This document shows, piece by piece, positions 1 through 13,538 of a stretch of 39,209 bases of DNA. The notes beneath the pieces were generated by a model. That model was given only the letters and a program-made list of their open reading frames with translations, did not search any database and was not told the origin of the DNA. Source of the stretch: a virus. The stretch covers positions 1 through 39,209 of the IMG/VR virus record IMGVR_UViG_3300027987_000156; one strand, written 5' to 3'. Position 1 is the stretch's first letter. Every line of letters starts with the position of its first letter. Made by a program: the position numbers and the translations under genes.

Positions 1-130
1 GCCCACCGTCTTCGGCGAATGAAACGTTGGCAAGCGTCTTCGCCCGATTGAACGCTACCTTCTGCGGATGGCTCTTTAGGTCGAGTCCGCCAAACTCCGC
101 TTCGACAAATTTTGTGCTTGGCTCGGGCAT
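1..130 (-). CDS. Tail nozzle-like protein, 5' fragment (wraps to 38995)
   Basis: This is the first 43 codons of the 1001-residue tail protein at 35990-38995, cut by the window edge. The start is the ATG at 128-130, overlapping the stop of the next gene as TGATG. The encoded start contains the FGGLDLKSHPQKVAF stretch seen at the complete copy. It is not a second gene: it exists because the linear sequence overlaps itself. Confidence 0.9.
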   Translation of the reverse strand, partial: MPEPSTKFVEAEFGGLDLKSHPQKVAFNRAKTLANVSFAEDGG

Positions 131-344
131 CAGAAAATCCAGAGCGTTAGCGATTTGAAGCCAAGTGTCGTGTACAGCTCGATATACTTGGTTCCAAGCG
201 CAGCGTCCTTGCGGCGGTATAGCGAAAAGTCGCCAGTCTCACCTGTGCCGAACTCGACATCATAGACCATGAATCCGCGCGGCTTACGCCCCAATCTGTG
301 CACAACGGTGAATGTGCCCGCCGATTGGGCATCTACATCTACCG
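1..344. repeat. Terminal redundancy, left copy
   Basis: This stretch recurs at 38866-39209 in the same orientation with 10 mismatches in 344 bases. The first 135 bases are identical and all differences fall in the small gene at 130-453. Translating both copies gives one amino-acid change (Val to Ile), so nine of ten differences are silent. That fits true strain variation at the closing overlap of a circular or circularly permuted genome better than sequencing noise. A genuine terminal repeat cannot be excluded. Confidence 0.9.
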
Positions 345-453
345 TCTTGCCGTCGAGGAACGGGATGGCTTCGTAGGCCCTTAGCCGATCTGTCACCTGC
401 AGATCGAATGGAGCTGCGGCAAACGGTGGCTCTATGGGATAGCGCTCGCTCAC
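130..453 (-). CDS. Small structural-module protein, 107 aa
   Basis: A protein of unknown function between the putative adaptor and the nozzle-like gene. It is rich in predicted beta strand (TFTVVHRLGRKPRGFMVYDV) and has a hydrophobic C-terminus (LTLWIF). No signal peptide or membrane segment is evident. Its start overlaps the adaptor stop by four bases and its stop overlaps the nozzle start, so it is translationally coupled to both. Position and size suggest a head-tail or tail accessory protein, but no family was recognised. A second, incomplete copy at the window's right end differs by one residue. Confidence 0.75.
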   Translation of the reverse strand: MSERYPIEPPFAAAPFDLQVTDRLRAYEAIPFLDGKTVDVDAQSAGTFTVVHRLGRKPRGFMVYDVEFGTGETGDFSLYRRKDAALGTKYIELYTTLGFKSLTLWIF

Positions 454-1223
454 AGCTCAATGATCCTGGTGTTGCTGCCACGGGGGCCGTTTCGCCATGT
501 GTCTTGTGTCCTGGTGGGCTCGCTGATGCTTCGGTCGACAAGTCCCTTTGTCAGCTCTACATAGCGATCGTCGCGCTCGACACGCAATGCTTGTGCATGA
601 GTGTATTTCTCCTCGTCGTTGAGTAGTTTGATTGAGGCATCGAGTACCGCCCACTGCTCCCATCCGGCAATCCCGTCGAACTTGTCTGTGGATGCTGTGA
701 ATGCCGGCTTCCATTCGTCGCTAGTATTCAAGAAGATGTCGGTGGGTACGAAGTAGACTGTCACATCATGCACGGCCCGTGGAGTCGGAGCCCAATAGAA
801 TCGAGAGCCTATCAGGCGGTACTTCGGCCACACGTTACCCCAACCACCGATGCTATCTCCCTCCCTGTCGATTGAGTTGAGTCCACTCTCTGGGATGCGG
901 TCTCGAATGCCGTCGATCGTCACTCGCAGCATGACAATCTTCCAGACGTTCCATCCGCCCATGCTGTCCTCGAGTGTGGGGCTCGCTGCCGCGGCGAGTG
1001 CTCCTGCCAAGTCTGTGTATTGCTGGTCTGCTACCGTCTGCACGTACGCTTCTTGCGCCCAATATAGCTCGTCATAGTCAGAGAGTAGATTCATCACCAG
1101 GGATCGGCACGACTCAGTGAGGTATTGCCGAATGGTCGCATCGTCGCGGAACGACCCAGATATATGATCGGTCCGGTTCCTTACGTCCGTTGTCAACAAT
1201 GCTGCTGTGCGGGTTAGTCCCAT
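450..1223 (-). CDS. Putative head-tail adaptor/connector
   Basis: A 257-residue protein after the capsid genes and before the nozzle-like gene, the usual place of a podovirus adaptor that docks below the portal. The N-terminal third looks helical (RQYLTESCRSLVMNLLSDYD). The middle is aromatic-rich with IGSRFYWAPTPRAVHDVTVY, and a helical stretch near WEQWAVLDASIKLL precedes a C-terminal segment with many charged residues (RVERDDRYVEL). This helix / beta insertion / helix pattern resembles adaptor proteins, but the assignment rests mainly on gene order. It ends by an ATGA overlap with the 107-residue gene. Confidence 0.5.
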   Translation of the reverse strand: MGLTRTAALLTTDVRNRTDHISGSFRDDATIRQYLTESCRSLVMNLLSDYDELYWAQEAYVQTVADQQYTDLAGALAAAASPTLEDSMGGWNVWKIVMLRVTIDGIRDRIPESGLNSIDREGDSIGGWGNVWPKYRLIGSRFYWAPTPRAVHDVTVYFVPTDIFLNTSDEWKPAFTASTDKFDGIAGWEQWAVLDASIKLLNDEEKYTHAQALRVERDDRYVELTKGLVDRSISEPTRTQDTWRNGPRGSNTRIIEL

Positions 1224-1229
1224 GGCTCT

Positions 1230-1457
1230 TTAGAGAAAAGGCTTCAGATCTCTCAGCGCGCGAACGAATGCGTCCACGTCGTCGTTACGCATGGCGCGCA
1301 TGGCGCGAGTACCAGCGTCCTTGCGCGCTCGCTTGTCTACTTCGTCTTTGTCGCCGTCGTCGTCGTCATCCCGCTTTCGGGAGCTCGGCTCGTCCTCACC
1401 CGACGAGCCGAGCTCCCGCGAGAGCGCCCCCGCCAAGCCTGACGGCTTAGCTGTCAT
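1230..1457 (-). CDS. Small acidic/basic charged protein, 75 aa
   Basis: The start chosen is the ATG at 1455-1457, preceded by AGAAGGAG with good spacing; this overlaps the previous gene's stop (1447) by 11 bases. The protein is highly charged, with a run of aspartates (DDDDDGDKDEVDKRARK) and a short C-terminal helix (DVDAFVRALRDLKPFL). It is probably largely disordered. A perfect 17-bp inverted repeat lies inside the gene (1378-1418). Its place between a head protein and the adaptor suggests a small head or assembly factor; no family was recognised. Confidence 0.6.
   Translation of the reverse strand: MTAKPSGLAGALSRELGSSGEDEPSSRKRDDDDDGDKDEVDKRARKDAGTRAMRAMRNDDVDAFVRALRDLKPFL
1378..1418. repeat. 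Perfect 17-bp hairpin inside a coding region
   Basis: Left arm 1378-1394 and right arm 1402-1418 are exact reverse complements, with the 7-base loop CTCACCC. The stem is GC-rich and has no following T-run on either strand, so it does not look like a standard intrinsic terminator. It lies in the charged 75-residue gene. It could be a transcript stability or attenuation element within the head operon. Confidence 0.85.
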
Positions 1458-1845
1458 AGTTGGCTCCTTCTGCAACTGATCCATAACGCATGATCAGCTC
1501 GAAGAAGATCTTGTTGTCGGCATCGGCTGCGATGTCTGCCAGCGATCCGCCTGTCAAATTGCGAATAACAAGCGTGCCTGCTGACTTGTCGTATGCGCCG
1601 AAGTGTGGAGTGACATCAGCGGATGATGCGAGCTGTACACATAGCCCGCCGTACCCAATCATGTCGCGCCGATATTCAGACTTCAGCGTTACGGTCCATA
1701 CTCCAGTGCTTGTGTGCGCTACGCTTTCGATAGCGCGCCCGTAGAACGTCGTCGGGTCGCTCGCGGCATTCGTAGCAAATCCACATGGGATATGCTGCTG
1801 CTGCTTGCTTGCGCCAGCTACGTTATGTGAGACGTATTCACCCAT
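1447..1845 (-). CDS. Putative head decoration or minor capsid protein, 132 aa
   Basis: A 132-residue protein directly after the major capsid gene in the transcript. It appears beta-rich, with alternating strands such as TGVWTVTLKSEYRRD and AGTLVIRNLTGG, and has no membrane or signal segment. Gene order and size match head decoration or cement proteins, which often follow the capsid gene. Sequence alone does not identify the fold. The N-terminus (MGEYVSHNVAGASKQQQ) has the polar, flexible look of a capsid-binding tail. It starts 25 bases after the capsid stop. Confidence 0.5.
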   Translation of the reverse strand: MGEYVSHNVAGASKQQQHIPCGFATNAASDPTTFYGRAIESVAHTSTGVWTVTLKSEYRRDMIGYGGLCVQLASSADVTPHFGAYDKSAGTLVIRNLTGGSLADIAADADNKIFFELIMRYGSVAEGANYDS

Positions 1846-1870
1846 TGATGTCTCCTAGGCTATGCCCGCA

Positions 1871-3136
1871 TCAGAGGCTGGCTAGAGTGTTGCGGATGTT
1901 CCGGCCTGGGGCTCGGCAGCCTAGATTGCCTCGGTGCTTGACTTCGATCTTCCACGTGTCGCCGCTGCCACGGCGGATGGTCAGACCATCATCATCGATC
2001 GTGTGGACAAGGCGATCACCGGAGTACCCGATGATCCAGCTCGAACGTGTGAGGCCCAGCCCCTCATTGATCCCGCAGCCGCCATCGCTGACGCATGGGA
2101 CTACGCCTTGCTCGCCAGTGAATGCGAGCGCCTGGAATGACACCATGGCTCGCCCGGCGCGACCAGTCATCATCATGCGACGATTACCCTGGTCAGCCCC
2201 AATCGAGTTAGAAATGTTCGCCCACCTTACCGGGTTGACGACATAGGTGTCTATCATTGCATCGTACAGATTCGCATAGCCCAACGACTCAACGATTCCT
2301 TCTTCGACGGGCTTACCGCTGATGTCCAGCCGGATGCCGCTAAGACGCAACACGTCCGCAGTGCGATCGACGCCGTGATGACTGTCGCCAGCGGATGGGT
2401 CGGTGTCTGGAATCCAGCCACGCATGCCCGTCCACTTGGCTCGGAAGTCTCCATCGGCAAACAGGTAATTCGTTGCCGCAAGACCGCTGATGCTAACGGT
2501 GACATCGCTGGCGAACTCCAAGAACCCCTGCATCCTGTCGATGCCAGTGATCGTGACCGTGTTGCCGCTATCGAGAACCACATGGCTGCTGCTGCTGCCA
2601 TCATTGGCCGAAGATTGCAGGACCATGCCCTCCTCGAAAAACTTCGAGTCTGTCACGTTGGTGAGCACGATGCGCGTATTTGCGCCCGCATTACCCGTTG
2701 TGATCGAGCTGATTCTTCCGCGATAACCGCCAACATGCCCGAACATGCCATGCTGTAGATCCTTGCGCATGTTCGCGATTGCACCTTCCATCTCGGTGTC
2801 AATGGCTTCGGCGATCGCGTTTTCATTGCCACTCGTATCGTCGACGGTATTACCTTCGATCTTGGCGATGTGGTAGTTGGAGACGTATTCAACGTCGAAT
2901 CTGACCATCTGGCTTGATGCCGCATTTTGGTCAGCTTTGGTATAGTTGGCCGAGCGCCCCTGCGTGCCTACACGCATATAGGGCAGGCTCATGTAACGGC
3001 CGCCTAGCTGCCTGTCGCTCGTCTCCAGCATTGCTAGCAGTGGGGCGTTTGCGACGACGGCCTGCATGATCGAGTCAGGCTCGATCCAACGCTCCTTCAT
3101 ATATGCAACGATCGCCGCTCTGTTGAGTGCTCCCAT
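1871..3136 (-). CDS. Major capsid protein
   Basis: A 421-residue protein following the scaffold gene. The N-terminal helix-like stretch (MKERWIEPDSIMQAVVANAP) and central LQHGMFGHVGGYRGRI segment precede a beta-rich insertion at roughly residues 140-225. The C-terminal half carries the SLGYANLYDAMIDTYVVNP stretch and ends with basic NLGCRAPGRNIRNTLASL. Length, composition and position immediately after scaffold match HK97-fold capsid proteins of podoviruses. It would assemble the icosahedral shell. No protease is encoded nearby, which suits a podovirus with a separate scaffold. Fold assignment is by context rather than by a diagnostic motif. Confidence 0.75.
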   Translation of the reverse strand: MGALNRAAIVAYMKERWIEPDSIMQAVVANAPLLAMLETSDRQLGGRYMSLPYMRVGTQGRSANYTKADQNAASSQMVRFDVEYVSNYHIAKIEGNTVDDTSGNENAIAEAIDTEMEGAIANMRKDLQHGMFGHVGGYRGRISSITTGNAGANTRIVLTNVTDSKFFEEGMVLQSSANDGSSSSHVVLDSGNTVTITGIDRMQGFLEFASDVTVSISGLAATNYLFADGDFRAKWTGMRGWIPDTDPSAGDSHHGVDRTADVLRLSGIRLDISGKPVEEGIVESLGYANLYDAMIDTYVVNPVRWANISNSIGADQGNRRMMMTGRAGRAMVSFQALAFTGEQGVVPCVSDGGCGINEGLGLTRSSWIIGYSGDRLVHTIDDDGLTIRRGSGDTWKIEVKHRGNLGCRAPGRNIRNTLASL

Positions 3137-3150
3137 GATTCAATCCCCGA

Positions 3151-4143
3151 TCATCTACCGCCAGATGACGCTCTCCTGAGCGCTTCGATCCCGCGGGAAC
3201 GCAGCTCTTGGGCAGCCAGCTTCGTCTTGTCGACGCCGTCGCCCCGATCGCTTGCGAGTTCTTGTGACAGAGCACGTGGACCACCCGCATGCTCATTGTT
3301 ACCCGTTGTCACTGTGGGCTTGCTCGTTGTTGCAGTTGTTGCAGATCCACTTTCGCTCGTTAGCCCAAGGTGCTTATTCAGCAACTCTTTGCCGGCTGGC
3401 GTTGCCGCCAGCGCAGCGAGCTGCTTATCCACCTGGGCTATGAATCTGCTTTCTACTTCACGCGCGACTTCCCTTGCTTCAGGGGCCTCGCCCGCGGATT
3501 CCTTTTCTCTCCACAGCGCCACCATGTGGTTCTCCCCGCCGAGCGCTGATGCTATGGGCGTATCTCCTGAGGAGAGGAACTGACGCGCTGCTGCCAAGTC
3601 CGCAGCATTCATCTCAGCCTGACGCTGGCGCTGCTCATACTCTCGCCTTTGCTGCGCTTCGCTCTTGAGTTCGTCTAGTTCTTCAAGCTTCTTGCGTAGT
3701 TCAGGGGATAGCTTCTTCGCGTCAATATACTCGTCAGGGTCAACCTTGTGGCCTGCCTGCCGAAGCACATGGTCTGTCCACTCTTCGTACGTCAGGCCTA
3801 GCTCTTGTGCCAGTTCGAATTTCTTTTCCGGATCCTTCAGCGCGTCGAAACGGGCGAGACGTTGTGCGAGCTGCTCGCGATCCTTTCGCTCCTTCGCGAG
3901 CTGCTGTTCGACCTGCCTATAGCTCGCGGCAAGCCGTGCAAAACTCTGCCCGTCATCTCCGCTGCTCTCTGGCGCAGTGCTCTCGGCTGGCGCAGTAGCA
4001 TCTCCGCCGGAGGCGCGCGCAAGGGCATCCGCTCGTAGCTGTTCAGCGGTAGGTGTCTGCTGCACGGATGCTTCGCTGCCAGATGTCGCTTCTCCGGCAT
4101 CTCCGCCCTGTGCCTGTGTCTGTGTCTGTGCTTGCTGATCCAT
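3151..4143 (-). CDS. Capsid scaffolding protein
   Basis: A 330-residue hydrophilic protein between portal and capsid. Residues 1-75 are low-complexity and rich in Gln, Ala, Ser and Thr. Residues about 76-190 form a charged coiled coil (YRQVEQQLAKERKDREQLAQ and later REYEQRQRQAEMNAADLAA). The C-terminus is basic (RSRGIEALRRASSGGR), as in scaffolds that contact the capsid through a basic helix. It would guide procapsid assembly and then leave. Its first ~30 codons are duplicated in the mini-gene at 4153-4356, and its start is preceded by the same GCATAGAC sequence as that gene. Confidence 0.8.
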   Translation of the reverse strand: MDQQAQTQTQAQGGDAGEATSGSEASVQQTPTAEQLRADALARASGGDATAPAESTAPESSGDDGQSFARLAASYRQVEQQLAKERKDREQLAQRLARFDALKDPEKKFELAQELGLTYEEWTDHVLRQAGHKVDPDEYIDAKKLSPELRKKLEELDELKSEAQQRREYEQRQRQAEMNAADLAAARQFLSSGDTPIASALGGENHMVALWREKESAGEAPEAREVAREVESRFIAQVDKQLAALAATPAGKELLNKHLGLTSESGSATTATTSKPTVTTGNNEHAGGPRALSQELASDRGDGVDKTKLAAQELRSRGIEALRRASSGGR

Positions 4144-4152
4144 CGTCTATGC

Positions 4153-4356
4153 CTAGTGCTTGACCTTTACTCGCTTCATCTCACCGCGCTTCACCATCTC
4201 TCGCATTTCATCGATGATGATGCGTGCAATGTCCGTGAAGAATTGATCAAACGCTTCCGCTGTAGGTGTCTGCTGCACGGATGCTTCGCTGCCAGGTGTC
4301 GCTTCTCCAGCATCTCCGCCATGTGCCTGTGTCTGCTGATTCATTGTCTCTGTCAT
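4153..4356 (-). CDS. Chimeric mini-gene: scaffold N-terminus fused to portal fragment
   Basis: A 67-residue open frame between portal and scaffold. Residues about 5-34 nearly copy the scaffold N-terminus (GGDAGEATPGSEASVQQTPT). Residues about 35-67 copy portal residues about 416-450 (RIIIDEMREM is identical). Both its start and the scaffold start are preceded by TAG GCATAGAC(A/G) ATG, so the gene junction has been duplicated as well. The portal-derived part differs from its source at many codons while keeping the frame, arguing against an assembly artefact. It may encode a small helical protein able to bind portal or scaffold partners, or may be a decaying duplication. Confidence 0.6.
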   Translation of the reverse strand: MTETMNQQTQAHGGDAGEATPGSEASVQQTPTAEAFDQFFTDIARIIIDEMREMVKRGEMKRVKVKH

Positions 4357-4365
4357 TGTCTATGC

Positions 4366-6270
4366 CTATGCTGCGGCTACCGGCGCCGCAGGCACTTGCT
4401 CGGCAGCTACAGGCGCTGTGCCTGCCGCTGCAGGTGTGGGAGCTGCGCCGGCCGCAGCTTGCTCGGGCGATGTTTGAACCGGCTGCTGTGCCTGCTCAAA
4501 CAAAGATCTTAGGTCGTCAAGATAGAGATACAGTAGCTCAATCTTCTCTGGATCTAGCCTGCGCAGGCGAAACTTGTTGACAGAGAATGTACATAGCTTG
4601 ATCGCCAACTCGATGTCATCCGTAGGCTCGGGAGGGAAGTATTCGCCCTCTTCAATGATTCTCTCTATCGTGTCTAGGATGATGTCATGCGCTGACAGAT
4701 CAAGGCTCTTGAATCGCTCAAGATCTGGGAAATCAAGCAACGCCTTTGCTTCGTCGATCGAGATAAAGCCAGCAGCATACCAGTCCTCCACCGTCTGCGT
4801 TCGTCCAGCTGTCGAATCTGGGAGGGAGCTTGCTGGAGTTAGATCTAACTCGTATTGGTCATCATCGAGCGCGACTTCTTTCCAGTCGATTAGCTCGATC
4901 TTCGTGCGCGCGCCTTTGCGGTGACTGACCTTTACTGGCTTCAACTCGCCGCGCTCTGCCATCTCTCGCATTTCATCAATGATGATGCGGCCAAGATCTA
5001 GGAAGAATTGCTCGAACGCTTGTGTCTTCGTTATCCAGCGCTTACTGCCCGTGTCCTCTATCTCTCTGATAGCTGCTCCACTCTCCACGCCTCTTGGGAC
5101 TTGCCCTGTGGCGCGGAGTTGGTTTAGTCCGATTTGGGCATAGCCGTCTTCTATGATTTCACGCCGATAGGAAAACCATTCCGTAGGAACGCCGTTGGCT
5201 GTGAGTTGCATAGGTGGCGTGCCGCCAGATGGCACGCGATAGACAGTGGCTGGGTCATTATTTATGTGGTGGACACTGACCTTTGGGCCGTCGCGGGGGC
5301 CGTCGAACACTACGAAGTTACTTCGGCTGTTGAAATGAATTGCATCTGCGATCTTTAGGTGCAGATAGTTCAGCGCTCTCTGGTGGCCTCGCAGTTCTTC
5401 CACGATCCCCTGGCCGTAGAATCCTACCTGGCGAGTCTCCCATCGTAGGAATGCAATGGGGAAGCGCGACCGTTTGTATTCGCGTTTCTCCAGCAGCTTG
5501 CCTGGCACAGCTACCGCGTACTTGCCAGGCTTGTCTTCGCATCCGAGCCGCCATGACTGCACTAGCGCGACTTGGTCAAGCGTCTGATCGTGGTCAGCCC
5601 ATTTGAAGAGTTGCCTAAGCCTACCCTCCCACCCGCTACCGCTCGACATTGGTATCTCGGAGCCGTAATACTCTTGCAGGACTTGCCGGTCCATCATACG
5701 CACTCGATAGATGGTGCGCGGCTTGCCGTAGTATCCCTCACGCACGTCTACGAGGATTTCTCCGGGGAAGCATCGCTCTAGTTTGACGCGTCCCTCTTCA
5801 GAGAACACCACCACTGCCCCAAGAGAGCTAACGCCGCTGTCAATGAACGCTTGACGCCCCAGCTCGTATGCCCCGTTTTGAGCAAACACTCCCTTCACGA
5901 CTTGTTCACACGACTGCGCTTTCCGCGTGAGTCCCCAGTCCGCATCATCGGTCTGGAACTTGACCTTTGGCCGCTTGCTCGCGATATGTGCTGCTGCGGT
6001 ATTCACGACGCTGCCGCACAGATTGAATTTTAGCTTGGCCAGCGCTCGTCGCTTGAGTGACTCACTTGCGTCAAGTGGGATGTCAGACGTACCCACCAGG
6101 TCCTGCGCACCATACATCTCCATGAACAGCGCATCATCTGCACGACGGCGTCTGTTCTGACCTTCGATCTTGGTCACATCATCGAAGATAGACTCTGCAA
6201 TGTCGTCGCCGTCGACGGTCCACCAGCGCGGCCGCTCGTTACGCAATGTGCTGGGTAGTGAGTAGCTCAA
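4366..6270 (-). CDS. Portal protein
   Basis: A 634-residue protein located between large terminase and scaffold, with the length expected of a podovirus portal. Such proteins form the dodecameric ring for DNA entry and docking of the tail. Visible stretches include an N-terminal part with ALFMEMYGAQDLVG, a wing-like central domain, the LNYLHLKIADAIHFNSRSNF helix, and GLNQLRATGQVPRGVESGAA, which resembles the stem/channel region of podovirus portals. The C-terminus is an Ala/Pro/Gln-rich tail (AAAGAAPTPAAAGTAPVAA). Fragments of residues about 416-450 and 488-516 are duplicated in neighbouring mini-genes. Confidence 0.85.
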   Translation of the reverse strand: MSYSLPSTLRNERPRWWTVDGDDIAESIFDDVTKIEGQNRRRRADDALFMEMYGAQDLVGTSDIPLDASESLKRRALAKLKFNLCGSVVNTAAAHIASKRPKVKFQTDDADWGLTRKAQSCEQVVKGVFAQNGAYELGRQAFIDSGVSSLGAVVVFSEEGRVKLERCFPGEILVDVREGYYGKPRTIYRVRMMDRQVLQEYYGSEIPMSSGSGWEGRLRQLFKWADHDQTLDQVALVQSWRLGCEDKPGKYAVAVPGKLLEKREYKRSRFPIAFLRWETRQVGFYGQGIVEELRGHQRALNYLHLKIADAIHFNSRSNFVVFDGPRDGPKVSVHHINNDPATVYRVPSGGTPPMQLTANGVPTEWFSYRREIIEDGYAQIGLNQLRATGQVPRGVESGAAIREIEDTGSKRWITKTQAFEQFFLDLGRIIIDEMREMAERGELKPVKVSHRKGARTKIELIDWKEVALDDDQYELDLTPASSLPDSTAGRTQTVEDWYAAGFISIDEAKALLDFPDLERFKSLDLSAHDIILDTIERIIEEGEYFPPEPTDDIELAIKLCTFSVNKFRLRRLDPEKIELLYLYLDDLRSLFEQAQQPVQTSPEQAAAGAAPTPAAAGTAPVAAEQVPAAPVAAA

Positions 6271-6770
6271 AGGTGTGCGAGATCCAGCTCGTCACCATTT
6301 CGCTCGCTCTCGTCGTCGCTGTCAGGCGATGGCGGAAGATCGGTGAGTAGGGCGTCGGGCCCAAAGGCGCCATATAGCTCGGGCATGTCCTCTGGCCGTA
6401 TCAGGGTGGCGGCACGTGTCGACGATGTCAAGGGCGGTGGTGATGCGGCGTCCAGCTGTACAGCCTCGACTGGCGTCTGCTGCAGTTCGATCATCACGCA
6501 CGCATCCTGCCCGCAAGGCAGCGATACGCGGGTCACACCGTACCTTTGCAGTTGCTCCATGTTTGAAAGTAACTCCTTGAAAATACGTAAAGAATCGTCG
6601 GTAAGATCCATCTGTCCTCTACATGTCTGGAGCATCGTTGTATCGCGGCTGTGATAGCTCCCATTCACCGCGGTCCTCAGCTCTGGGAAATCAAGCAACG
6701 CCATGGCTTCGTCGATCGAGATAAAGCCAGCAGCATACCAGTCCTCTATCTTCTGCGTTCGGTCAGCCAT
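6267..6770 (-). CDS. Chimeric protein: portal fragment and terminase-tail duplication ahead of a small protein
   Basis: From the ATG at 6768-6770, preceded by AGAGGACAG, the frame encodes 167 residues. Residues 1-30 copy portal residues about 488-516 (WYAAGFISIDEA). The next stretch is a copy of the terminase 3' end read in another frame. The remainder, from MDLTDDSLRIFKELL, is a 114-residue protein with its own ATG at 6609-6611 and an identical AGAGGACAG leader. The ancestral gene is therefore probably 6267-6611, and the rest an in-frame insertion. The 114-residue part has a helical start and an acidic C-terminus (SPDSDDESERNGDELD). Its function is unknown. Confidence 0.6.
   Translation of the reverse strand: MADRTQKIEDWYAAGFISIDEAMALLDFPELRTAVNGSYHSRDTTMLQTCRGQMDLTDDSLRIFKELLSNMEQLQRYGVTRVSLPCGQDACVMIELQQTPVEAVQLDAASPPPLTSSTRAATLIRPEDMPELYGAFGPDALLTDLPPSPDSDDESERNGDELDLAHL
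6614..6677. repeat. Duplicate of the terminase 3' end and junction
   Basis: This segment repeats 6775-6838, which covers the last codons and stop of the large terminase and the following AGAGGACAG leader. Only about three bases differ over the compared span. Between the two copies lies a ~85-base copy of an internal portal segment (source about 4722-4806). Together they form a composite tandem duplication at this gene junction. Confidence 0.85.
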
Positions 6771-6777
6771 CTGTCCT

Positions 6778-8244
6778 CTACATGTCTGGAGCATCGTTGT
6801 ATCTCGGCTGTGGTGGCTCCCATTCACCGCGGTCCTCCTGCACGTGTCGCGGGACGGTAGGTGCAGGCGGACGGGCTTCAGGGTTATCGTAGGCTGGGCA
6901 CTCACGATACGCATACAGCCCCGCATCAGCCGTATCATCGTCCTGGCCCTCTGCGATGTCCTTTCGTTCTTCGTCCCACACCAGCGTAGCCCATTGCTGT
7001 TGCAGACTGTCGTCACCCTCTAGTGGCAGCTGCTGGCCATTATCGAGCTTGACCACGATAGGCTCAAATGCAGTCAACAATCGCAGCCTCCCAGTGTGTA
7101 GAGCGTCGCTAGTCATCTCGAGTGCTCCGCGCTTATCTGCCTTCTTTGCTGGTCGTATCGGGATGTCTGGCCAGCGCTTCAGGAACTCGACGGCATACGC
7201 CTTGCCCAGCCCTCCGACGTCACCCACTACAGAATCTGGATCGAAGTGGTCAATCAATGCCTTCATCCAATAGGCAAAATCGCTAGGCACCAGTCCATGC
7301 TTCTTCCCAGCGTGCACCACATAAGCATCGCTACCCCATCTCTCCGGATAAGCAATCACGGCCCATGCACACGCATCGCCATACCCGAAATCGAATGCAA
7401 TCGTGTGTGCCCATTTGTCCCCAATCGACAGCTCTGGCAAGGCAGACGCAAGGTTGCGATTTGGAGCATACTGAAAGACTCGGCGTGCGCTGTCGACGAT
7501 CCATTGAGCAAGGTACTCACGTCGCCAAATCGGATTGCTGTCATCCCATTTTCTGCGCGCGAAAAGTCGCTTCTTGAAAGCCTCAAAGTCAACGTGCGGA
7601 TTGTCTTTGGCTGTCCACCCATGCCTAGACCATCCAGGTAATCTGCCCGTGCACGCTTCATAGAAATACCCGTACGCCTGCGGAGTAGGCGTGCCCATAA
7701 GCCAGACGTCGCCGCCGCGATCCATCGTGGTTGCTTCGAGAACTTCGTCTATGAGGTACTTGAGGTAACTCGGACGCTGTGCTCCGCACTCATCTATTCG
7801 AATCTTGTCGAGTGCCCATCCGCGCATCTTTTCGAGTTCGCGAATGTCATCCATGCCTCGGACGTACAGTTCGCTGCCATTTGGCGCGCGCGCGATAGCT
7901 TCGCTCTCGTTGAGCTTGAGTCGCCAGTCGTAACGGTCATTGAGCTCTCTAAGTGGCCTCCAAAAGATTGCTTTTGCGCTTGGCCTGGAGACGCCAACAT
8001 ACAGGCCGGTTGAGCCTGCATCACTGTGCATGCCAGCGACGAAATCTGATAGCGCACAGATTGTCTTGCCGCTACGACGCCCGCACAGCAGCGTCTTGAA
8101 TGGCTCTGGATCGCTGATGACTGCGCGCTGGCACTCGAATAGATTGTCTAATGGATTGGATGTGATGCGAGCGGCCGAGCGGCGCCTCGCCTTTTCGGCG
8201 AGGGCCGATGCCAACATGCGCCGTATCGCGTCATGGCCTCCCAC
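6778..8244 (-). CDS. terL: Terminase large subunit
   Basis: The 488-residue ATPase/nuclease motor that packages DNA into the procapsid. The Walker A motif is CGRRSGKT (residues 54-61), Walker B is IRIDE (148-152) and the coupling motif is LMGTPT (182-187). The RNase H-like nuclease domain shows acidic residues in AFDFGYGD (283-290), VVGDVGG (339-345) and DDDTADAG (435-442). Length is typical. The C-terminus is proline-rich and may contact the portal. Residues about 193-248 are duplicated in the mini-gene at 8752-8958, and the last codons are duplicated at 6614-6677. Confidence 0.95.
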   Translation of the reverse strand: MGGHDAIRRMLASALAEKARRRSAARITSNPLDNLFECQRAVISDPEPFKTLLCGRRSGKTICALSDFVAGMHSDAGSTGLYVGVSRPSAKAIFWRPLRELNDRYDWRLKLNESEAIARAPNGSELYVRGMDDIRELEKMRGWALDKIRIDECGAQRPSYLKYLIDEVLEATTMDRGGDVWLMGTPTPQAYGYFYEACTGRLPGWSRHGWTAKDNPHVDFEAFKKRLFARRKWDDSNPIWRREYLAQWIVDSARRVFQYAPNRNLASALPELSIGDKWAHTIAFDFGYGDACAWAVIAYPERWGSDAYVVHAGKKHGLVPSDFAYWMKALIDHFDPDSVVGDVGGLGKAYAVEFLKRWPDIPIRPAKKADKRGALEMTSDALHTGRLRLLTAFEPIVVKLDNGQQLPLEGDDSLQQQWATLVWDEERKDIAEGQDDDTADAGLYAYRECPAYDNPEARPPAPTVPRHVQEDRGEWEPPQPRYNDAPDM

Positions 8245-8266
8245 ACTCTACACTACACGCATGCGA

Positions 8267-8752
8267 TCACTGATTTTTGTACTTGGGCTTCTTGGACTTC
8301 TTTTGGCTATCGACCCACGGTTTGTGGTCATCGCCCTTGGAGTACCGATTGCTCTCTGGATTGCGCGCGCTTGACTCTGGTTCGCTATGCGCCTGGACGC
8401 TGGCTGGTTCCTTCGGCACTTCCGGTGAATCTGACACCGGGTCATGCGGCGCCGCAGACACAGAAAACGTGTGGCCCTTGCAATCGTCGCGACTTTCGAG
8501 GACCGCAATAAGCCGCTCTTCTCCGACGACGACCAAGTCACGCAACGTGCGTATGACCAGTCCATGGTATTCGTGGTCTGGGACCAAGCCCACCAAGATA
8601 CGAGCAAACTCCGCCGCGCGCTCTCGCATACGACAGCTAGGTGTCTCCAGAAGTTGGGCTCGGCGCTTCGCCCCAGGCGGGTCTGGCGCTACTTGCCTGG
8701 GCGCGAACGTTTCCCTGATACGTATGTTTGTTGGAACCGTTGTATTGGCCAT
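8267..8752 (-). CDS. Uncharacterised protein upstream of large terminase, 161 aa
   Basis: A 161-residue protein of unknown function. The N-terminal half contains a probable helical region (RMRERAAEFARILVGLVPDH) and LVIRTLRDLVVVGEERLIAV. The C-terminal 60 residues are hydrophilic and disordered-looking, ending in a lysine-rich tail (DSQKKSKKPKYKNQ). It starts with a TAATG overlap with the preceding mini-gene. The basic tail suggests nucleic-acid binding, possibly a packaging accessory, but that is inference from composition and location. Its first ~15 codons are duplicated at the start of the mini-gene at 8752-8958. Confidence 0.6.
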   Translation of the reverse strand: MANTTVPTNIRIRETFAPRQVAPDPPGAKRRAQLLETPSCRMRERAAEFARILVGLVPDHEYHGLVIRTLRDLVVVGEERLIAVLESRDDCKGHTFSVSAAPHDPVSDSPEVPKEPASVQAHSEPESSARNPESNRYSKGDDHKPWVDSQKKSKKPKYKNQ

Positions 8753-8958
8753 TATTCGCTAGCCTTCTCAAGATACTTACGCTGCCAGATAGGATTGCTG
8801 TCGTCCGACTTTTTGCGCGCAGAAAGTCGCTTCTTGAACACGTCAAAATCGACGTGTGGTTTGCTTTTTGCTGCCCATTCATGCCTGGGCAATCCAGCTT
8901 CGTAAAAATACCCGCACGGCACGTGAGTTGACCTGATGCGTATGGATGTACTGGCCAT
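8752..8958 (-). CDS. Chimeric mini-gene: 5' end of the next gene fused to terminase fragment
   Basis: A 68-residue frame. The first ~15 codons resemble the start of the following 161-residue gene (TSIRIR against TNIRIR), including the GCGAATAATGGCCA junction. Residues about 15-62 copy large-terminase residues about 193-245: PHVDFDVFKKRLSARKKSDD here, PHVDFEAFKKRLFARRKWDD in the terminase. The nucleotide copies are clearly diverged but remain in frame. It overlaps both flanking genes by stop/start sharing, so it is probably translated. The source segment lies between the terminase ATPase and nuclease domains, so a dominant-negative or regulatory peptide is conceivable. Confidence 0.6.
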   Translation of the reverse strand: MASTSIRIRSTHVPCGYFYEAGLPRHEWAAKSKPHVDFDVFKKRLSARKKSDDSNPIWQRKYLEKASE

Positions 8959-9215
8959 TATTCGCCAACTTCCTTCGTCTCATAGTCGATAGCTCGAATG
9001 TTCACCGCAGGAACATAGCGCGAATACACTCCAGCGTCTTTGCCGCGCGAATCCAGCGGATATAGCCGGATGCCAGGACCAAATACTGGATGCTCCACCT
9101 CTTCGACTCCCTCTACACTGTTCGGCGCTGCTACTATTCGACTTCCCTCCACCACTCCGAGCTTAGGTTGGTGTTCCCGGAATATCACTCGTAAAATTCG
9201 CTTCTTCGTGCTCAC
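8958..9215 (-). CDS. Uncharacterised basic protein, 85 aa
   Basis: An 85-residue protein starting with a basic segment (MSTKKRILRVIFREHQPKLG), then predicted beta strands, and a C-terminus with YVPAVNIRAIDYETKEVGE. An AGGAGGATC-type ribosome-binding site precedes the ATG. No cysteine cluster, membrane segment or known motif was found. The stop overlaps the start of the terminase-fragment mini-gene as TAATG. Its location in the packaging gene block suggests a phage-specific accessory role only. Confidence 0.65.
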   Translation of the reverse strand: MSTKKRILRVIFREHQPKLGVVEGSRIVAAPNSVEGVEEVEHPVFGPGIRLYPLDSRGKDAGVYSRYVPAVNIRAIDYETKEVGE

Positions 9216-9237
9216 TGTCTGATCCTCCTTCGGCTTG

Positions 9238-9690
9238 CTATTCCTGCTTGGCCCATTCGTGTGGCCTGTATGCCCATCCTCGCCGCTCTGCCACTGCTAG
9301 TATCTGTGCCCTGGCCTTGCCTCCATTCGTCGATGGCCTAAACGTGTATGCGCTTGGTTCGCCGTCGCATGCAGCAGCGGCCAGTCTTGAAGCAAATCCA
9401 GCGCGGCGAAACGGACGCTTGACGTAGACGTAGTGCAGCTCGCCGCCTCTATTGCCGCAGGCCCATCCGAGCCATACGTCCGGCTCGTCGGTAAGCCGCG
9501 CGAGCGCTATGCGTTGGGTCCATAGTAGGCGCAGAAGTCGGTCATGCATTACGTCGTAATAGCGCCCGGTGCCCATGCCCAGCTCGATGCACCCTAGAGG
9601 CTGGTATGACCGTAGCCAAGACTTCAGCACGAATCCGACCAGCTCTTGTGGCAGGGAATCTGCGATCTCTACAGTGACCGCGTCAGGCAT
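9238..9690 (-). CDS. GNAT-like acetyltransferase
   Basis: A 150-residue protein with a GNAT-like core: the central strand pair (VWLGWACGNRGGELHYVYV) is followed by KRPFRRAGFASRL, matching the acetyl-CoA-binding R/Q-x-x-G-x-G/A loop and helix. Phages often carry such proteins beside terminase genes, and their substrates are mostly unknown. It overlaps the small terminase stop by one base. The family assignment is moderate; the acetylation target cannot be deduced. Confidence 0.6.
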   Translation of the reverse strand: MPDAVTVEIADSLPQELVGFVLKSWLRSYQPLGCIELGMGTGRYYDVMHDRLLRLLWTQRIALARLTDEPDVWLGWACGNRGGELHYVYVKRPFRRAGFASRLAAAACDGEPSAYTFRPSTNGGKARAQILAVAERRGWAYRPHEWAKQE

Positions 9691-10160
9691 CAGTTAGGCA
9701 CTCCGCCGACTGGCGACTCCCCAGCTTTTTTCACGTAGCCCAGATCGTCTAATGTGCCCTCGATTAGCCTATCTAGATCCTCGTCTGGGAGCTCTGCGAT
9801 AGGAGAGCGCTTGCCTTTTTCTCCGATGTCTAGCCGGTCAAGCACCAGCTTCGCAGTGTGCAGTCGCAGCATGTTGCACTTCACTCTTGCCTCATCCTGG
9901 TCAGGCTCCAGGCAGTCTTCAATGGCGCGAATACTCACGATAGCCAAATTGCGTAAGTCGCGCCTGGCTTGCTCGATTACACCCGCAGACACCTGATCTT
10001 CGATCATTCTGAACTCGAGAGTCTGCCTCCACTCCCATAGTGTCTTGCGTTGGATGCCTATCGTATCAGCTACTTCTTGCCATGACTTACCTTCACCAAT
10101 ACGCATCGCTACTGCTTCAGCGTATCGCGTTGTTTTGTGTGGGACTTTTGCGTTTGGCAT
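9690..10160 (-). CDS. terS: Terminase small subunit (putative)
   Basis: The protein contains an N-terminal helix-turn-helix (GKSWQEVADTIGIQRKTLWE), a central helical region with many acidic and basic residues, and the C-terminal PIAELPDEDLDRLIEGTLDD segment. This arrangement (DNA-binding HTH, helical oligomerisation core, C-terminal contact region) and its place upstream of the large terminase match small terminases, which recognise phage DNA to start packaging. The ATG at 10158-10160 is chosen because AGGAG lies 10 bases upstream and it follows the previous stop at 10168; a TTG at 10181 is an alternative. Confidence 0.7.
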   Translation of the reverse strand: MPNAKVPHKTTRYAEAVAMRIGEGKSWQEVADTIGIQRKTLWEWRQTLEFRMIEDQVSAGVIEQARRDLRNLAIVSIRAIEDCLEPDQDEARVKCNMLRLHTAKLVLDRLDIGEKGKRSPIAELPDEDLDRLIEGTLDDLGYVKKAGESPVGGVPN

Positions 10161-10167
10161 CTTTTGT

Positions 10168-10476
10168 CTACTCCTGTTCAATCACAGCAACTATCTCGCT
10201 CTCTGGCATCACCGTAAGTGTCTCTCCGCCGAACTCTATATCAGTCCCAGCCATCTCCCAAAACAGCACGCGGTCCCCCGGTGAGACTGCCGTGCAGTCA
10301 CGATAGGTGGATACGACAGTGCCACGCTCGTCACATGCCTTGCGGCCTGCAGGAGACCGCGCGGCTTGCCGCACAGGTTCTGGTATCGCGATTCCTCCAT
10401 CGCTGTGCATAGGCCTCGGGTCGCGCCGAACCACAATGCGACCCATTCCACCTATCGGCCTGAGTTCGGCAGGCAT
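10168..10476 (-). CDS. GroES-like co-chaperonin
   Basis: A 102-residue protein of Cpn10 length. It shows the beta-barrel start GRIVVRRDP, a GGI-containing mobile-loop region (HSDGGIAIPEPVRQ) that in GroES contacts GroEL, the AVSPGDRVLFWEMAGTDI strand pair, and the classic end VMPESEIVAVIEQE. It would replace host GroES to fold phage proteins such as the capsid, as T4 gp31 does. The ATG at 10474-10476 overlaps the preceding stop as TGATG; a 12-residue longer form is possible. No chaperonin (GroEL) gene accompanies it. Confidence 0.85.
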   Translation of the reverse strand: MPAELRPIGGMGRIVVRRDPRPMHSDGGIAIPEPVRQAARSPAGRKACDERGTVVSTYRDCTAVSPGDRVLFWEMAGTDIEFGGETLTVMPESEIVAVIEQE

Positions 10477-10742
10477 CAATCGGTGAGCCCCCGGTATGAC
10501 AGCTCTGCCCACCGGCGTAGACAGCTGTCGATGACTACAGAATAGCCTGCCTCATAGCCAGCATGAGCTGTGCAGTCCTGAATCCAGGCTCTGCATGACG
10601 CTAGCTGCGAACAGTTGTTGTACTTCTGGGAGCTGGCGGGGGATGGGCGTCCTATGGTGTCCAATAAGAGCAGCAGGCATAGCCCCATCGCTGCCCCGTA
10701 ACACATTCTCGTTAGCCACCTCGTTATGTTTGTCGTCGTCAT
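10476..10742 (-). CDS. Small exported or membrane-anchored Cys protein, 88 aa
   Basis: The ATG at 10740-10742 follows AAAGGA and shares ATGA with the end of the micropeptide at 10739-10840. The N-terminus has a basic start followed by CYGAAMGLCLLLLLDTIG, a signal peptide or membrane anchor. After that, a short polar domain carries four cysteines (NNCSQLASCRAWIQDC and SCLRRW) that could form disulfides in the periplasm. It may be a superinfection-exclusion or lysis accessory factor. The family was not recognised. Confidence 0.6.
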   Translation of the reverse strand: MTTTNITRWLTRMCYGAAMGLCLLLLLDTIGRPSPASSQKYNNCSQLASCRAWIQDCTAHAGYEAGYSVVIDSCLRRWAELSYRGLTD

Positions 10743-10840
10743 TTTCGTCGTTTCCTTTCGCTCTTTAGAACGCACAGCAATAGATCTATAGCGCGCCATG
10801 CTACCGCGCCAAGCACGCGGTCAAGACGTTTTACCATCAT
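10739..10840 (-). CDS. Basic membrane micropeptide, 33 aa
   Basis: A short gene inside the 3' end of the nuclease gene and the following gap. It starts at the ATG at 10838-10840 with the strong GGGGAGG site a few bases upstream; a second ATG follows immediately. The peptide has an amphipathic/hydrophobic helix (VLGAVAWRAIDLLLCVL) and a strongly basic tail (KSERKRRK). Its TGA shares ATGA with the start of the exported Cys protein gene. This resembles small membrane-active phage peptides. Support comes from the ribosome site and the exact overlap; the function is unknown. Confidence 0.55.
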   Translation of the reverse strand: MMVKRLDRVLGAVAWRAIDLLLCVLKSERKRRK

Positions 10841-11168
10841 TCACCCTCCCCGTTAGCGCAGCCAGCGCCTCCTGCTGGCTCCTAACGATGAACACAGCGT
10901 GCCCCATGCCGCGCGCGCGCTCATGCCATGCCACTTGTGATGGCTGCAGCTTGCCTTTGGCCGTCTTGACCTCGAACCATACCACTTGGCCTTGCGTTAG
11001 CATCACCAAGATATCAGGCGTCCCTGCCTCCCCCACGCGATAGGGCGCAGCCTTGCCGGTGCTCTTGTTCGCCGCCCACATGGTGCCTGCATTCATTCTG
11101 ATAGGATGCCCTAGTCCAGATAATTCGATCGCGTGAATAATCGCGCGCTGTAATTCTCGCTCACTCAT
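10821..11168 (-). CDS. VRR-NUC domain nuclease
   Basis: A 115-residue stand-alone nuclease of the PD-(D/E)xK fold. The sequence shows an N-terminal helix (MSERELQRAIIHAIELSG), the core GTPDILVML with catalytic Asp, FEVKTAKGKLQPSQ with the E-x-K catalytic pair, and the following helix with WHERARGMGHAVFIVRS. VRR-NUC proteins in phages are predicted structure-specific endonucleases resolving branched DNA in replication or packaging. The start overlaps the stop of an upstream small frame as ATGA. Confidence 0.9.
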   Translation of the reverse strand: MSERELQRAIIHAIELSGLGHPIRMNAGTMWAANKSTGKAAPYRVGEAGTPDILVMLTQGQVVWFEVKTAKGKLQPSQVAWHERARGMGHAVFIVRSQQEALAALTGRVNDGKTS

Positions 11169-11245
11169 CTGCGATGCTCACTCATGGCGCCCCCCGCGGT
11201 GAAGCGGACCTTGAACTCGTGGTTGCGCTTTGGGTCGCTAGACAT
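11165..11245 (-). CDS. Possible 26-aa microprotein
   Basis: A short frame between the nucleotidyltransferase and the nuclease. It begins at the ATG at 11243-11245 inside the previous gene's last codons and ends at a TGA that overlaps the nuclease ATG. The translation (MSSDPKRNHEFKVRFTAGGA then MSEHRR) is basic and has no known motif. It is the only frame bridging this gap, and its exact four-base overlap supports translation, but such a short frame could be chance. Its last codons resemble the start shared by the genes at 11983 and 12322. Confidence 0.35.
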   Translation of the reverse strand: MSSDPKRNHEFKVRFTAGGAMSEHRR

Positions 11246-11621
11246 TGCGGTACCTGCTTGCCCCGAGCCCGCGAACGCCCAGGGCGATCCGCTTTCCACT
11301 GTGGTCCGTGTTGGCGGCGTCGACTTCCTGAAACTGCAGCTCAACAGGTAGCGAGGTTTGGTCTCCGATCAGCTTGGAGAATGCGATGCATGTGATTTCC
11401 CAGCGCGCGCTCAGCCACGGCGCCGATGGGTCGAGTTCTCCGAACATGCCCCGCCACTCCTTGCCGGATAACAGAACCCGGACGTCGACATCGCGATAGT
11501 CGGCACGGGTGATGCACGAGCCGACTAGGTACACGCCCTCCTCAAACGCTTGGTCGAGCGGAGCGCATGCGATGTCGAGCGCGATCAGCTGTGGGCGGTT
11601 CAGGTAGGTGATTCGGCTCAT
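11238..11621 (-). CDS. Minimal nucleotidyltransferase-like protein
   Basis: The protein is about 127 residues from MSRITYL (GGAG six bases upstream); a start four codons earlier at 11633 is possible. Motif LVGSCITRADYRDVDVRVLL matches the Pol beta-like nucleotidyltransferase signature, with GS, then a D-x-D pair that binds metal. A third acidic residue may be in VELQFQEVD. Phage members could modify tRNA, antibiotics or proteins, or act in toxin-antitoxin-like MNT modules; no HEPN partner is adjacent. The family call is fairly secure, the substrate unknown. Confidence 0.65.
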   Translation of the reverse strand: MSRITYLNRPQLIALDIACAPLDQAFEEGVYLVGSCITRADYRDVDVRVLLSGKEWRGMFGELDPSAPWLSARWEITCIAFSKLIGDQTSLPVELQFQEVDAANTDHSGKRIALGVRGLGASRYRNV

Positions 11622-11630
11622 GGCTCGCTC

Positions 11631-11658
11631 CATTTCCGAGGCTCCGCCAGGTTGAGAC
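11631..11658. repeat. Duplicate of a neighbouring gene's 3' end
   Basis: This segment nearly repeats 11984-12011, the 3' end of the zinc-ribbon gene (coding LAEPRK and stop on the minus strand), with one or two differences. Here it creates a 14-codon frame (MSLNLAEPRKWSEP) whose stop overlaps the nucleotidyltransferase start as ATGA. It is another example of a gene end copied to a nearby junction. Confidence 0.75.
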
Positions 11659-11667
11659 TCATGGGCT

Positions 11668-11970
11668 CTAGTCTCTTTCCAATTTATCGGCGAATGCCAG
11701 CTCGCGCTTCAACCACTTCGGCCCCCGCGGGTCCGGAGCCCTGCCGTTGGTCTCGTCACGTCTGGTCGCAGCTTGATAGATCGCGTGTGCCCGGGCGCGC
11801 CACCATGGGGCCCATGTATGGTCTACATACGGCCCACGCAGCTTCACTGTACGGTACACCTCCCGCTGTTTGTCGGAATCCACGGTTGCCCAGCATGTCG
11901 CGCACATCAGGTGTGCGGGCGGGCAAGGAGAGCTGCAGCCGAGTGCATGGCAGTAGTGATTCATCTTCAT
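11668..11970 (-). CDS. Small zinc-binding phage protein
   Basis: The protein begins MKMNHYCHALGC, with GAGGA five bases upstream of the ATG at 11968-11970; the ATG two codons later is possible. Cysteines in CHALGCSSPCPP and MCATCW could bind zinc, followed by a helix typical of a recurring phage family of about 100 residues whose start reads MNHYCHAxGC and which has an aromatic-containing middle (WAPWWRARAHAIYQAA). Its role is unknown; such proteins sit in early or DNA-metabolism clusters. Confidence 0.65.
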   Translation of the reverse strand: MKMNHYCHALGCSSPCPPAHLMCATCWATVDSDKQREVYRTVKLRGPYVDHTWAPWWRARAHAIYQAATRRDETNGRAPDPRGPKWLKRELAFADKLERD

Positions 11971-11982
11971 GCTCTTCCTCAC

Positions 11983-12318
11983 TCATTTCCGAGGCTCCGC
12001 CAGGTGGAGACGCAGCTCCGCCTGGTGGAGCTGCGTCTCCACGTCATCGAGGCCGCTGCGCGCGGTGGCATGAAGCCAGTCCCCGAAAGTCACGCTAGAG
12101 CCGTCAAGCGTCATCTCGATAATCGAGATGAGAGCGTCGAGCTGGGAGGCCGTCAGACGAAGCGTAACCGGCCTCGGCAGGTCGACGATACGCCCTGTTG
12201 CCTCGCACCGCCCCACAGCGCCGTTGTGACGATGCAGACGCCCGTTGCGGCGTACAGCGACACGCCGCCCGCACACGGGACACCGAGTCGATTCGGGCGT
12301 GTTGCGGTGCTCATTCAT
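11983..12318 (-). CDS. Zinc-ribbon protein, 111 aa
   Basis: The N-terminal region holds CPVCGRRVAVRRNGRLHRH and a later Cys (GRCEAT), suggesting a zinc-binding ribbon with C-x-x-C and H/C ligands. The C-terminal half is helical (PVTLRLTASQLDALISIIEM) with a heptad-like end (VETQLHQAELRLHLAEPRK). Its first codons (MNEHRNTPE) are nearly the same as those of the next gene upstream (MSEHSNTPE). A perfect 16-bp inverted repeat lies within its 3' end. It may be a DNA-binding or regulatory protein. Confidence 0.6.
   Translation of the reverse strand: MNEHRNTPESTRCPVCGRRVAVRRNGRLHRHNGAVGRCEATGRIVDLPRPVTLRLTASQLDALISIIEMTLDGSSVTFGDWLHATARSGLDDVETQLHQAELRLHLAEPRK
12004..12042. repeat. Perfect 16-bp hairpin in the zinc-ribbon gene
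   Basis: Arms 12004-12019 and 12027-12042 are exact reverse complements around the 7-base loop GCCTGGT. There is no T-run after either arm. Stem length and loop size resemble the hairpin at 1378-1418. Confidence 0.85.
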
Positions 12319-12321
12319 GGA

Positions 12322-12942
12322 TCATCCTCCATGCCTTGCCTGCTTGGCGAGCCCCACGAGCCACAAAGCAAACGCCGGCGGGGTCCGCCGACGCTGTTGC
12401 GCGCTGCAGACCTTGATCCCGGAAGGTACCGCGCACCCGGTGCGCTTGTAGTTCGCGGGGTATTGTCTGCCGCCGCCGGTGCGGAACCCCGCGCACCAGT
12501 GCGTTGGCTCACGGGGCGGTGGCAGCTCCCCGACGTCATGCACGCCAACCAGATAGAGCCACGTTCGCTTGCGCGCGACGTGCCCCCAATCGACTTGACA
12601 CACTTCGATCGTGTAGCCGCCCCAAGTGTCCGGCAGGTCGCCCGGCCGGGGAAGTCCGCAGTTCTGAAAAAGCTTCGAATGAGCCGGGTGCTCGAGCACA
12701 CCACCCCACGCCCTTACTTGCTCCACAGCCCGCAGCGCGCACTCTGGATCCTGTTGCTTGGCTAGATGCCTCATACGCCCCCATGGACCGCATGGCGGAT
12801 GTGCCACCACGGGGTGGGGGCCGGTGTAGCGCTTGGCATCGCGGGTGACGTCCCAGCAGTCTACCTCGGATAGCGCGGGGTAGGGGCCGCGCGGATCGAT
12901 GTATAGCGCCGCCACCTCGGGCGTGTTGCTGTGCTCACTCAT
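12322..12942 (-). CDS. DNA methyltransferase-like protein (phage PPC family)
   Basis: A 206-residue protein with AALYIDPRGPYP, then VVAHPPCGPWGRMRHL (residues 45-60), whose PPC resembles the catalytic Pro-Cys loop of C5 cytosine methyltransferases. It also has GGVLEHPAHSKLF and a C-terminal RRRTPPAFALWLVGLA, as at the end of Dcm-like enzymes. It lacks a full-length N-terminal SAM domain, so it may be a divergent or inactive enzyme; a role in protecting phage DNA from restriction is inferred. Its start overlaps the upstream stop by four bases. Confidence 0.6.
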   Translation of the reverse strand: MSEHSNTPEVAALYIDPRGPYPALSEVDCWDVTRDAKRYTGPHPVVAHPPCGPWGRMRHLAKQQDPECALRAVEQVRAWGGVLEHPAHSKLFQNCGLPRPGDLPDTWGGYTIEVCQVDWGHVARKRTWLYLVGVHDVGELPPPREPTHWCAGFRTGGGRQYPANYKRTGCAVPSGIKVCSAQQRRRTPPAFALWLVGLAKQARHGG

Positions 12943-13538
12943 GGCTCATTCTCCCTTTCCAGGTTATCCAAAATCTCCAGGCCGTCTGCCATCCCCACTG
13001 CGACGTCCAGCAGCTCGATGTCGAGCTGACGCAGCACTTTCCCGACCGTCCACCCTTCAGGCGCTCCAGGCGCCTGTACGCCTCCCAGAGCCTCTGAGAC
13101 CGTGAGGCGCCACCCTGGGCGCCTCAGCTTGCGTTCTGCCCACACAGAGGCGTCTGGGGCCCAGCAACGGCCCTCTTCGCACGCCCTGGCCAGCACGCGT
13201 AGCTCCTGGCCGTCGAATGCTGGGGTCTGCACTTCGACGCAGCGGGCGCACACCTCACCCGACGTACTCATCACCACCGGCCGACCCCCCAACGATACCA
13301 ACATCGTAGTGGGCTCAGGTAGGTCACGTAACCACCTCATCGGATACGTAAGCAATTGTGCCGAATACTGTTGCAAAATAGCAACAGGGACGGGTTGGAC
13401 GGGTTCCAGCAAGAGTCCCTCCTGTGCGCGCGCGCGCACGTCCGCGTCGCGCGTGTTACGCGCGTATATGCGCGCAGGAGACACTCTTGCGACAACCCGT
13501 CCAACCCGTCCCTCCTTTTTGGAACCATTCGTTATCAT
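12939..13538 (-). CDS. Uncharacterised protein upstream of the methyltransferase
   Basis: About 199 residues from the ATG at 13536-13538, preceded by GGAGA seven bases upstream; a shorter form from the ATG at 13340 would leave the large inverted repeat non-coding. The middle includes VCARCVEVQTPAF and ACEEGRCWAP, a possible zinc site. The C-terminal ~70 residues (PEGWTVGKVLRQLDIELLDV) look helical and acidic. The N-terminal basic part is encoded by the inverted-repeat DNA and may be untranslated. The function is unknown. Confidence 0.55.
   Translation of the reverse strand: MITNGSKKEGRVGRVVARVSPARIYARNTRDADVRARAQEGLLLEPVQPVPVAILQQYSAQLLTYPMRWLRDLPEPTTMLVSLGGRPVVMSTSGEVCARCVEVQTPAFDGQELRVLARACEEGRCWAPDASVWAERKLRRPGWRLTVSEALGGVQAPGAPEGWTVGKVLRQLDIELLDVAVGMADGLEILDNLERENEP
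13386..13513. repeat. Large imperfect inverted repeat, possible replication origin
   Basis: Positions 13386-13405 and 13494-13513 are perfect 20-base reverse complements. Pairing continues inwards with interruptions, including a shared AGCAAGAG/CTCTTGC part and CTCCTG/CAGGAG, toward a GC-alternating centre. The outer arms also contain direct 9-base repeats of GACGGGTT(G/C). The element lies close to the primase and helicase genes, as expected of an origin or primosome-loading site. A transcription control role is also possible. Confidence 0.6.

Follow-up and report, generated by a model that had tools for sequence, protein, structure and literature searches.

Three gene junctions in the morphogenesis operon of this phage carry units of one build, in which a gene boundary that occurs twice encloses an internal piece of the portal gene or of the large terminase gene (TerL). 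We regard these units as probable scars of local, direct-orientation duplication or template switching at short homologies, kept by survivorship. The duplication mechanism has precedents in phage T4, and what is new here is the presence of three in-frame chimeras in one operon.

Genomic context of the junctions

The window, i.e. the whole stretch of DNA that was analysed, is an IMG/VR virus record of 39,209 bases. Its morphogenesis genes all lie on the minus strand, as do all parts of the junction units described below. In gene order they are a small-terminase-like gene (9690-10181, with a weak PHROG match), a GNAT gene, an 85-aa gene, mini3, a 161-aa gene, TerL (6778..8244), mini2 with gene X, the portal gene (4366..6270), mini1, a gene in the scaffold position and the capsid gene. 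TerL, the portal gene and the scaffold-position gene (330 aa, 3151..4143) are intact; the last is named by its position before the capsid gene, and an informative family match was not found for it. Gene X (114 aa, 6267..6611) has its own ATG (6609-6611) and its own AGAGGACAG, and the small genes that relatives carry at the same TerL-portal position show weak sequence similarity to it. A GroES-like co-chaperonin gene (window 10168-10512) adjoins the small-terminase-like gene. RecD-like helicases and PD-(D/E)XK nucleases are common, and this lineage encodes both.

Anatomy of the three units

Self-comparison resolves each of the three junctions into an A-B-A' arrangement, comprised of a boundary copy (A), an internal portal or TerL piece (B) and the boundary again (A'). 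The copied boundary consists of a stop, a spacer and a start with flanking codons. The sequence-only reading had reported a boundary copy joined to an internal portal or TerL piece at these three junctions, and all three are confirmed on the minus strand by self-search; its description of the layout as boundary plus piece is corrected here, since the piece has a boundary copy on each side. The B copies were recovered with E-values of 2e-29 to 3e-22, and below E = 1 the self-search found no other repeats beyond the junction units, a pentapeptide-gene array, the contig ends and two further boundary pairs. The copies differ from their sources by 4-22%, and the sources of the B pieces lie ~0.7-2 kb from the junctions in direct orientation.

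At the scaffold junction, the 67-aa mini1 ORF (4153..4356) begins as the scaffold N-terminus, continues as portal codons and ends at the copied TAG and GCATAGAC spacer. In gene direction, A comprises a stop, GCATAGAC and the first ~30 scaffold codons, B comprises 33 portal codons, and A' repeats the stop, spacer and start. The boundary copy A1 (4255..4335) is 94% identical over 81 nt to A1', the real scaffold gene start at 4042..4122, and B1 (4156..4256) is 82% identical over 101 nt to its source at 4921-5021 in the portal gene. A1 differs less than B1 (5/81 versus 18/101, P = 0.024). Going by position alone, the predicted portal structure suggests that B1 spans a long helix and the strand after it.

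The TerL-portal junction consists of the last TerL codons, AGAGGACAG and ATG (A), 29 portal codons (B), and a second TerL end, likewise followed by AGAGGACAG and ATG (A'). Here the boundary copy A2 (6767..6837) matches A2' (6608..6678, before gene X) at 96% over 71 nt, and B2 (6679..6767) matches its source at 4721-4809 in the portal gene at 91% over 89 nt; B2 is also more diverged than its A flank, although not significantly. By its position in the same portal model, B2 would cover two later helices, and a nearly invariant portal Asp (99%) is changed in it. The mini2 frame, preceded by AGAGGACAG, crosses the TerL-end copy in a frame other than that of TerL and then enters X, forming a single 167-aa ORF (6267..6770). 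mini2 is an N-terminal extension of X and not a separate gene, and the closed mini-gene that had been placed at 6267-6770 does not exist.

At the junction between the 85-aa and 161-aa genes, the 68-aa mini3 ORF (8752..8958) has an N-terminus that resembles the downstream 161-aa gene, followed by TerL residues ~192-246, with a TAATG stop/start overlap on both sides. In gene direction, A holds GCGAATAATGGCCA with the initial codons of the 161-aa gene, B holds ~50 TerL codons, and A' holds GCGAATAATGGCCA once more. The boundary copy A3 (8947..8974), which spans the end of the 85-aa gene, GCGAATAATGGCCA and the start, is 82% identical over 28 nt to A3' (8741..8768), located before the 161-aa gene. 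B3 (8769..8935) derives from 7509..7693 in TerL; 7509-7637 aligns with 8769-8897 at 78% over 129 nt, and the similarity extends to 8935. Relative to its sources, mini3 has indels of 18 nt (a deletion in B3) and 12 nt, both multiples of three. Solved terminase ATPase domains can be aligned with the predicted TerL model (mean pLDDT 89.5) up to about residue 250, and B3 corresponds to residues 192-246 of the model, at the end of the ATPase domain.

All three B pieces lie on the same strand and in the same reading frame as their source, and six of six joints are in frame, which for freely chosen frames has a chance of ~(1/3)^6 = 0.0014 (1 in 729) by a post hoc calculation. The mini1, mini2-X and mini3 frames are open, as had been noted earlier; mini3, like mini1, terminates at the copied stop.

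Two further boundary pairs on the minus strand have an A-x-A' layout around small genes, without terminase or portal pieces. One of them (11984..12014 with 11631-11661, 94% over 31 nt) flanks a 104-aa gene. The other (12917..12954 with 12293-12330, 89% over 38 nt) includes the ribosome-binding region, the start codon and the peptide MxEHxNTPE, and stands before two neighbouring genes. A gene start lies within each of the five boundary repeats. In addition, the window carries at 17400-21070 a tandem array of five adjacent overlapping pentapeptide-repeat genes, mostly with ~70-78% DNA identity. The further boundary pairs and the array show the same duplication tendency elsewhere in the genome.

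Relative ages and selection

Divergence between B and its source, counted as synonymous differences per site, is 0.16 for mini2, 0.34 for mini1 and 0.60 for mini3. Judged from these values, the units most likely record three events at three times, mini3 being the oldest and mini1 and mini2 younger. Both the proposal that the copies arose at different times and the proposal of repeated duplication at gene junctions are borne out by these three copied-junction units of differing divergence.

The comparison of dN/dS with the sources gave a divided answer. Pairwise values are 0.54 for mini2, 0.34 for mini1 and 0.12 for mini3, with a pooled value of 0.23 (bootstrap 0.13-0.41). We simulated a constrained source and a copy that is neutral after copying, matched for synonymous change. 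The expected and observed numbers of non-synonymous differences are ~6-7 and 6.0 for mini2, ~14-15 and 11.2 for mini1, and ~40-42 and 15.5 for mini3. Neutral post-copy change is compatible with mini1 (P 0.32-0.34) and mini2 (P 0.51-0.59), whereas for mini3 neutrality is rejected (P 0.005-0.01) if the divergence came after copying; the mini3 test uses a small sample, and a diverged donor would weaken its conclusion. A protein-level role is plausible for mini3 alone, which may be a small protein under constraint, built from the end of the TerL ATPase domain; mini1 and mini2 fit neutrality and resemble spacer frames that evolve almost neutrally. That such products modulate packaging or assembly, as the sequence-only reading suggested, is conjecture.

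Conservation among 200 TerL relatives adds to this picture. In mini3, five of seven conserved TerL residues are changed versus 9 of 42 others (P = 0.015), and the residues that it carries at conserved sites have a mean frequency of 0.04 in these relatives. Among the changed residues are a Glu conserved at 97% and, in the WTxxDNP stretch, the Thr and the Asn. Pooled over the three minis, conserved-site changes show no enrichment (P = 0.60); the mini3 signal stands alone and is modest. mini3 has retained much of its sequence yet lost what a terminase requires. Since conserved TerL residues are altered, it is not simply a fragment of another phage's working terminase.

Authenticity of the sequence

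The window is an uncultured assembly, and its ends (1-344 and 38866-39209) overlap imperfectly, with 10 mismatches over 344 nt (97%), a feature in favour of an assembly or amplification artefact as the origin of the units. Against this stands a second record, IMGVR_UViG_3300027985_001226 (17,453 bases), which represents the same phage at 99.9% and comes from a sample that may not be independent. It differs from window positions 1-12822 at seven sites, none of which falls within 4153-8958. It also matches the left copy of the end overlap; the right end therefore represents a strain variant, and the closed genome measures ~38.87 kb. Moreover, differences of 4-22% between copies and sources, with third-position and in-frame patterns, are unlike chimeric reads. 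The artefact reading is largely refuted already, and we consider it extremely improbable.

Rarity among related phages

A search for such mini-genes in related phages, as suggested in the sequence-only reading, found none: copies of TerL, portal, scaffold or capsid pieces are absent from 229 other phage loci (219 with TerL, ~110 with portal), each protein being compared with its own locus. About 100 of these loci come from the wide TerL/portal family to which this phage belongs, recovered in alignment-based scans at ~24-37% identity. A unit as old as mini3 would be detectable by this approach (E ~1e-16 in the window). The sole match, an inverted copy with 100% identity that lies at the end of a contig in locus L022, was rejected as an artefact. 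Short-range direct repeats of any kind number 7 in 13 kb here versus 44 in 2.13 Mb of the other loci, where those inspected were promoters, terminators, and whole-gene or repeat-domain duplications.

Pelagibacter phage HTVC010P (L008) has two small genes between the terminase and the head-tail connector that share a duplicated C-terminus of ~35 residues (2216-2437 and 2640-2882); this duplication was set aside as containing no terminase or portal sequence. In a locus with a related terminase (L175), one gene's end recurs at the end of the GNAT-like gene that follows it (1919-1959 and 2490-2530, 88%), a copy that resembles the A repeats. In another relative (L094, 5213-7138), the large terminase is apparently split by an intein-like insert (CFVAGTLIATHRGEIPIEMV ... 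VHNC).

IMG/VR scans with single proteins (terminase, portal, capsid) returned the same phage only, and scans of bacterial and archaeal genomes gave no match. The phage collection yielded no DNA, portal or capsid match and only distant terminase matches (22-28%). The collections searched contain no relative close enough for a frame-conservation test, nor one showing an empty or intermediate junction. The literature searched, from which most subscription papers were absent, describes no comparable terminase/portal chimeras.

Origin of the units

During phage replication or break repair, copying would jump from the junction (A) to a nearby TerL or portal site (B) through a few bases of chance homology and then return to the junction. 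This could occur in a single template-switching event, or by a tandem duplication from which most of the surplus sequence was later lost, so that A-B-A' remained. The nearby source, the direct orientation and the few bases apparently shared at the joints fit either template switching or duplication-deletion. The apparent homology spans only ~1-4 nt by eye, blurred by later divergence, and its shortness counts against this account. Survivors would be only those inserts that are in frame and duplicate the whole junction, so that flanking genes, ribosome-binding or coupling signals and downstream reading are unharmed. In an operon whose genes abut or overlap, an insert that brings a second boundary would damage neither neighbour, and the two would stay translationally coupled, which would explain why the units survived where they did. 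The in-frame joints can be explained without protein function, since translation of the downstream gene would lose its coupling if the insert were out of frame. Within this account, we infer the short-homology mechanism, the survivorship and the translation of the frames.

The lesser divergence of A1 than of B1 counts against a single simple event with equal rates; to account for it, the A copies would need to have undergone gene conversion with each other, or the donor of B would need to have been diverged already. Such a donor is the core of an alternative explanation, in which illegitimate recombination with a related, co-infecting phage supplied the B pieces, already diverged from the resident genes before insertion. 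Besides the excess divergence of B1 (P = 0.024), paralleled in direction at junction 2 without significance, such a capture would account for the mainly synonymous divergence of B3 with no selection on mini3. However, the residues of mini3 at five of seven conserved sites are unlike those of functional TerLs, and these changes postdate its departure from a working TerL; the nearly invariant portal Asp is altered in mini2; and the A copies of the boundary correspond to the phage's own junctions. We therefore judge capture unlikely. Somewhat more doubtful still is the explanation that all three units encode selected small proteins acting on terminase or portal assembly, as dominant-negative or regulatory fragments. 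The open frames, the retained start/stop coupling or ribosome-binding sequence, the in-frame indels, the pooled dN/dS and the rejection of neutrality in mini3 speak for it, but mini1 and mini2 are indistinguishable from neutral post-copy change (P ~0.3 and ~0.5), their changes are unpatterned, mini2 runs on into another gene, and the units are absent from all relatives scanned.

Other known sources of repeated sequence can be set aside. Insertion of a transposon or homing element was rejected, as B is coding sequence of the phage's own genes without inverted ends or an enzyme gene, and the repeat is a 28-81 nt gene boundary. Start-associated regulatory repeats were rejected too, since each boundary repeat is distinct and present twice, with no consensus upstream of many genes. 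T4-type phages carry repeated promoter cassettes, in which gene-start copies occur across the genome with a regulatory consensus at many genes. The start-associated sequences of cluster K mycobacteriophages (PMC3203893) likewise involve copies of gene-start sequence spread over one genome, but these are short or regulatory consensus elements at many genes, whereas here a unique boundary is copied once, beside itself.

The closest parallel to the duplication or template switching that we favour is T4, in which recombination at short homologies readily amplifies parts of the genome, genes 16-18 among them, while headful packaging forces compensating deletions (PMC9391042). The T4 cases (Hp17 with genes 16-18, and dmd-tifA; PMC9391042) are direct-orientation phage duplications, with the terminase region among them, that rely on few-base homology; the copies described here are likewise direct and close to their source, and may have arisen through similarly short homology. 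The T4 duplications are whole-gene tandem arrays observed during selection, in contrast to the present units, which hold a boundary and an internal piece only and are diverged by 4-22%. No full-length tandem unit is found at these junctions; as A-B-A' alone remains, such a unit either never existed or has since been deleted.

Significance

Avs1-Avs4 (AVAST) recognise terminase and portal (PMC12931631), the same two proteins that supplied the pieces here, TerL and portal, in what is a coincidence of targets only (PMC12931631; PDB 8dgc). By analogy, mini3 and possibly the others could be decoy or competitor proteins made from pieces of packaging proteins that Avs sensors recognise, a notion that we hold to be very improbable. 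If it were true, junction duplication would be a phage route to counter-defence or assembly-tuning proteins from the phage's own parts.

Tailed phage genomes are tightly packed, and the entry of new small genes between coupled genes is rarely caught in progress. This one genome keeps three events of different ages, in which the source, the copied junction and the product are all legible, and one of the products may have evolved on under protein-level constraint. For annotators, the units are a warning: a small frame at a junction of this type can be a scar. Finally, gene birth from a duplicated junction becomes directly testable.
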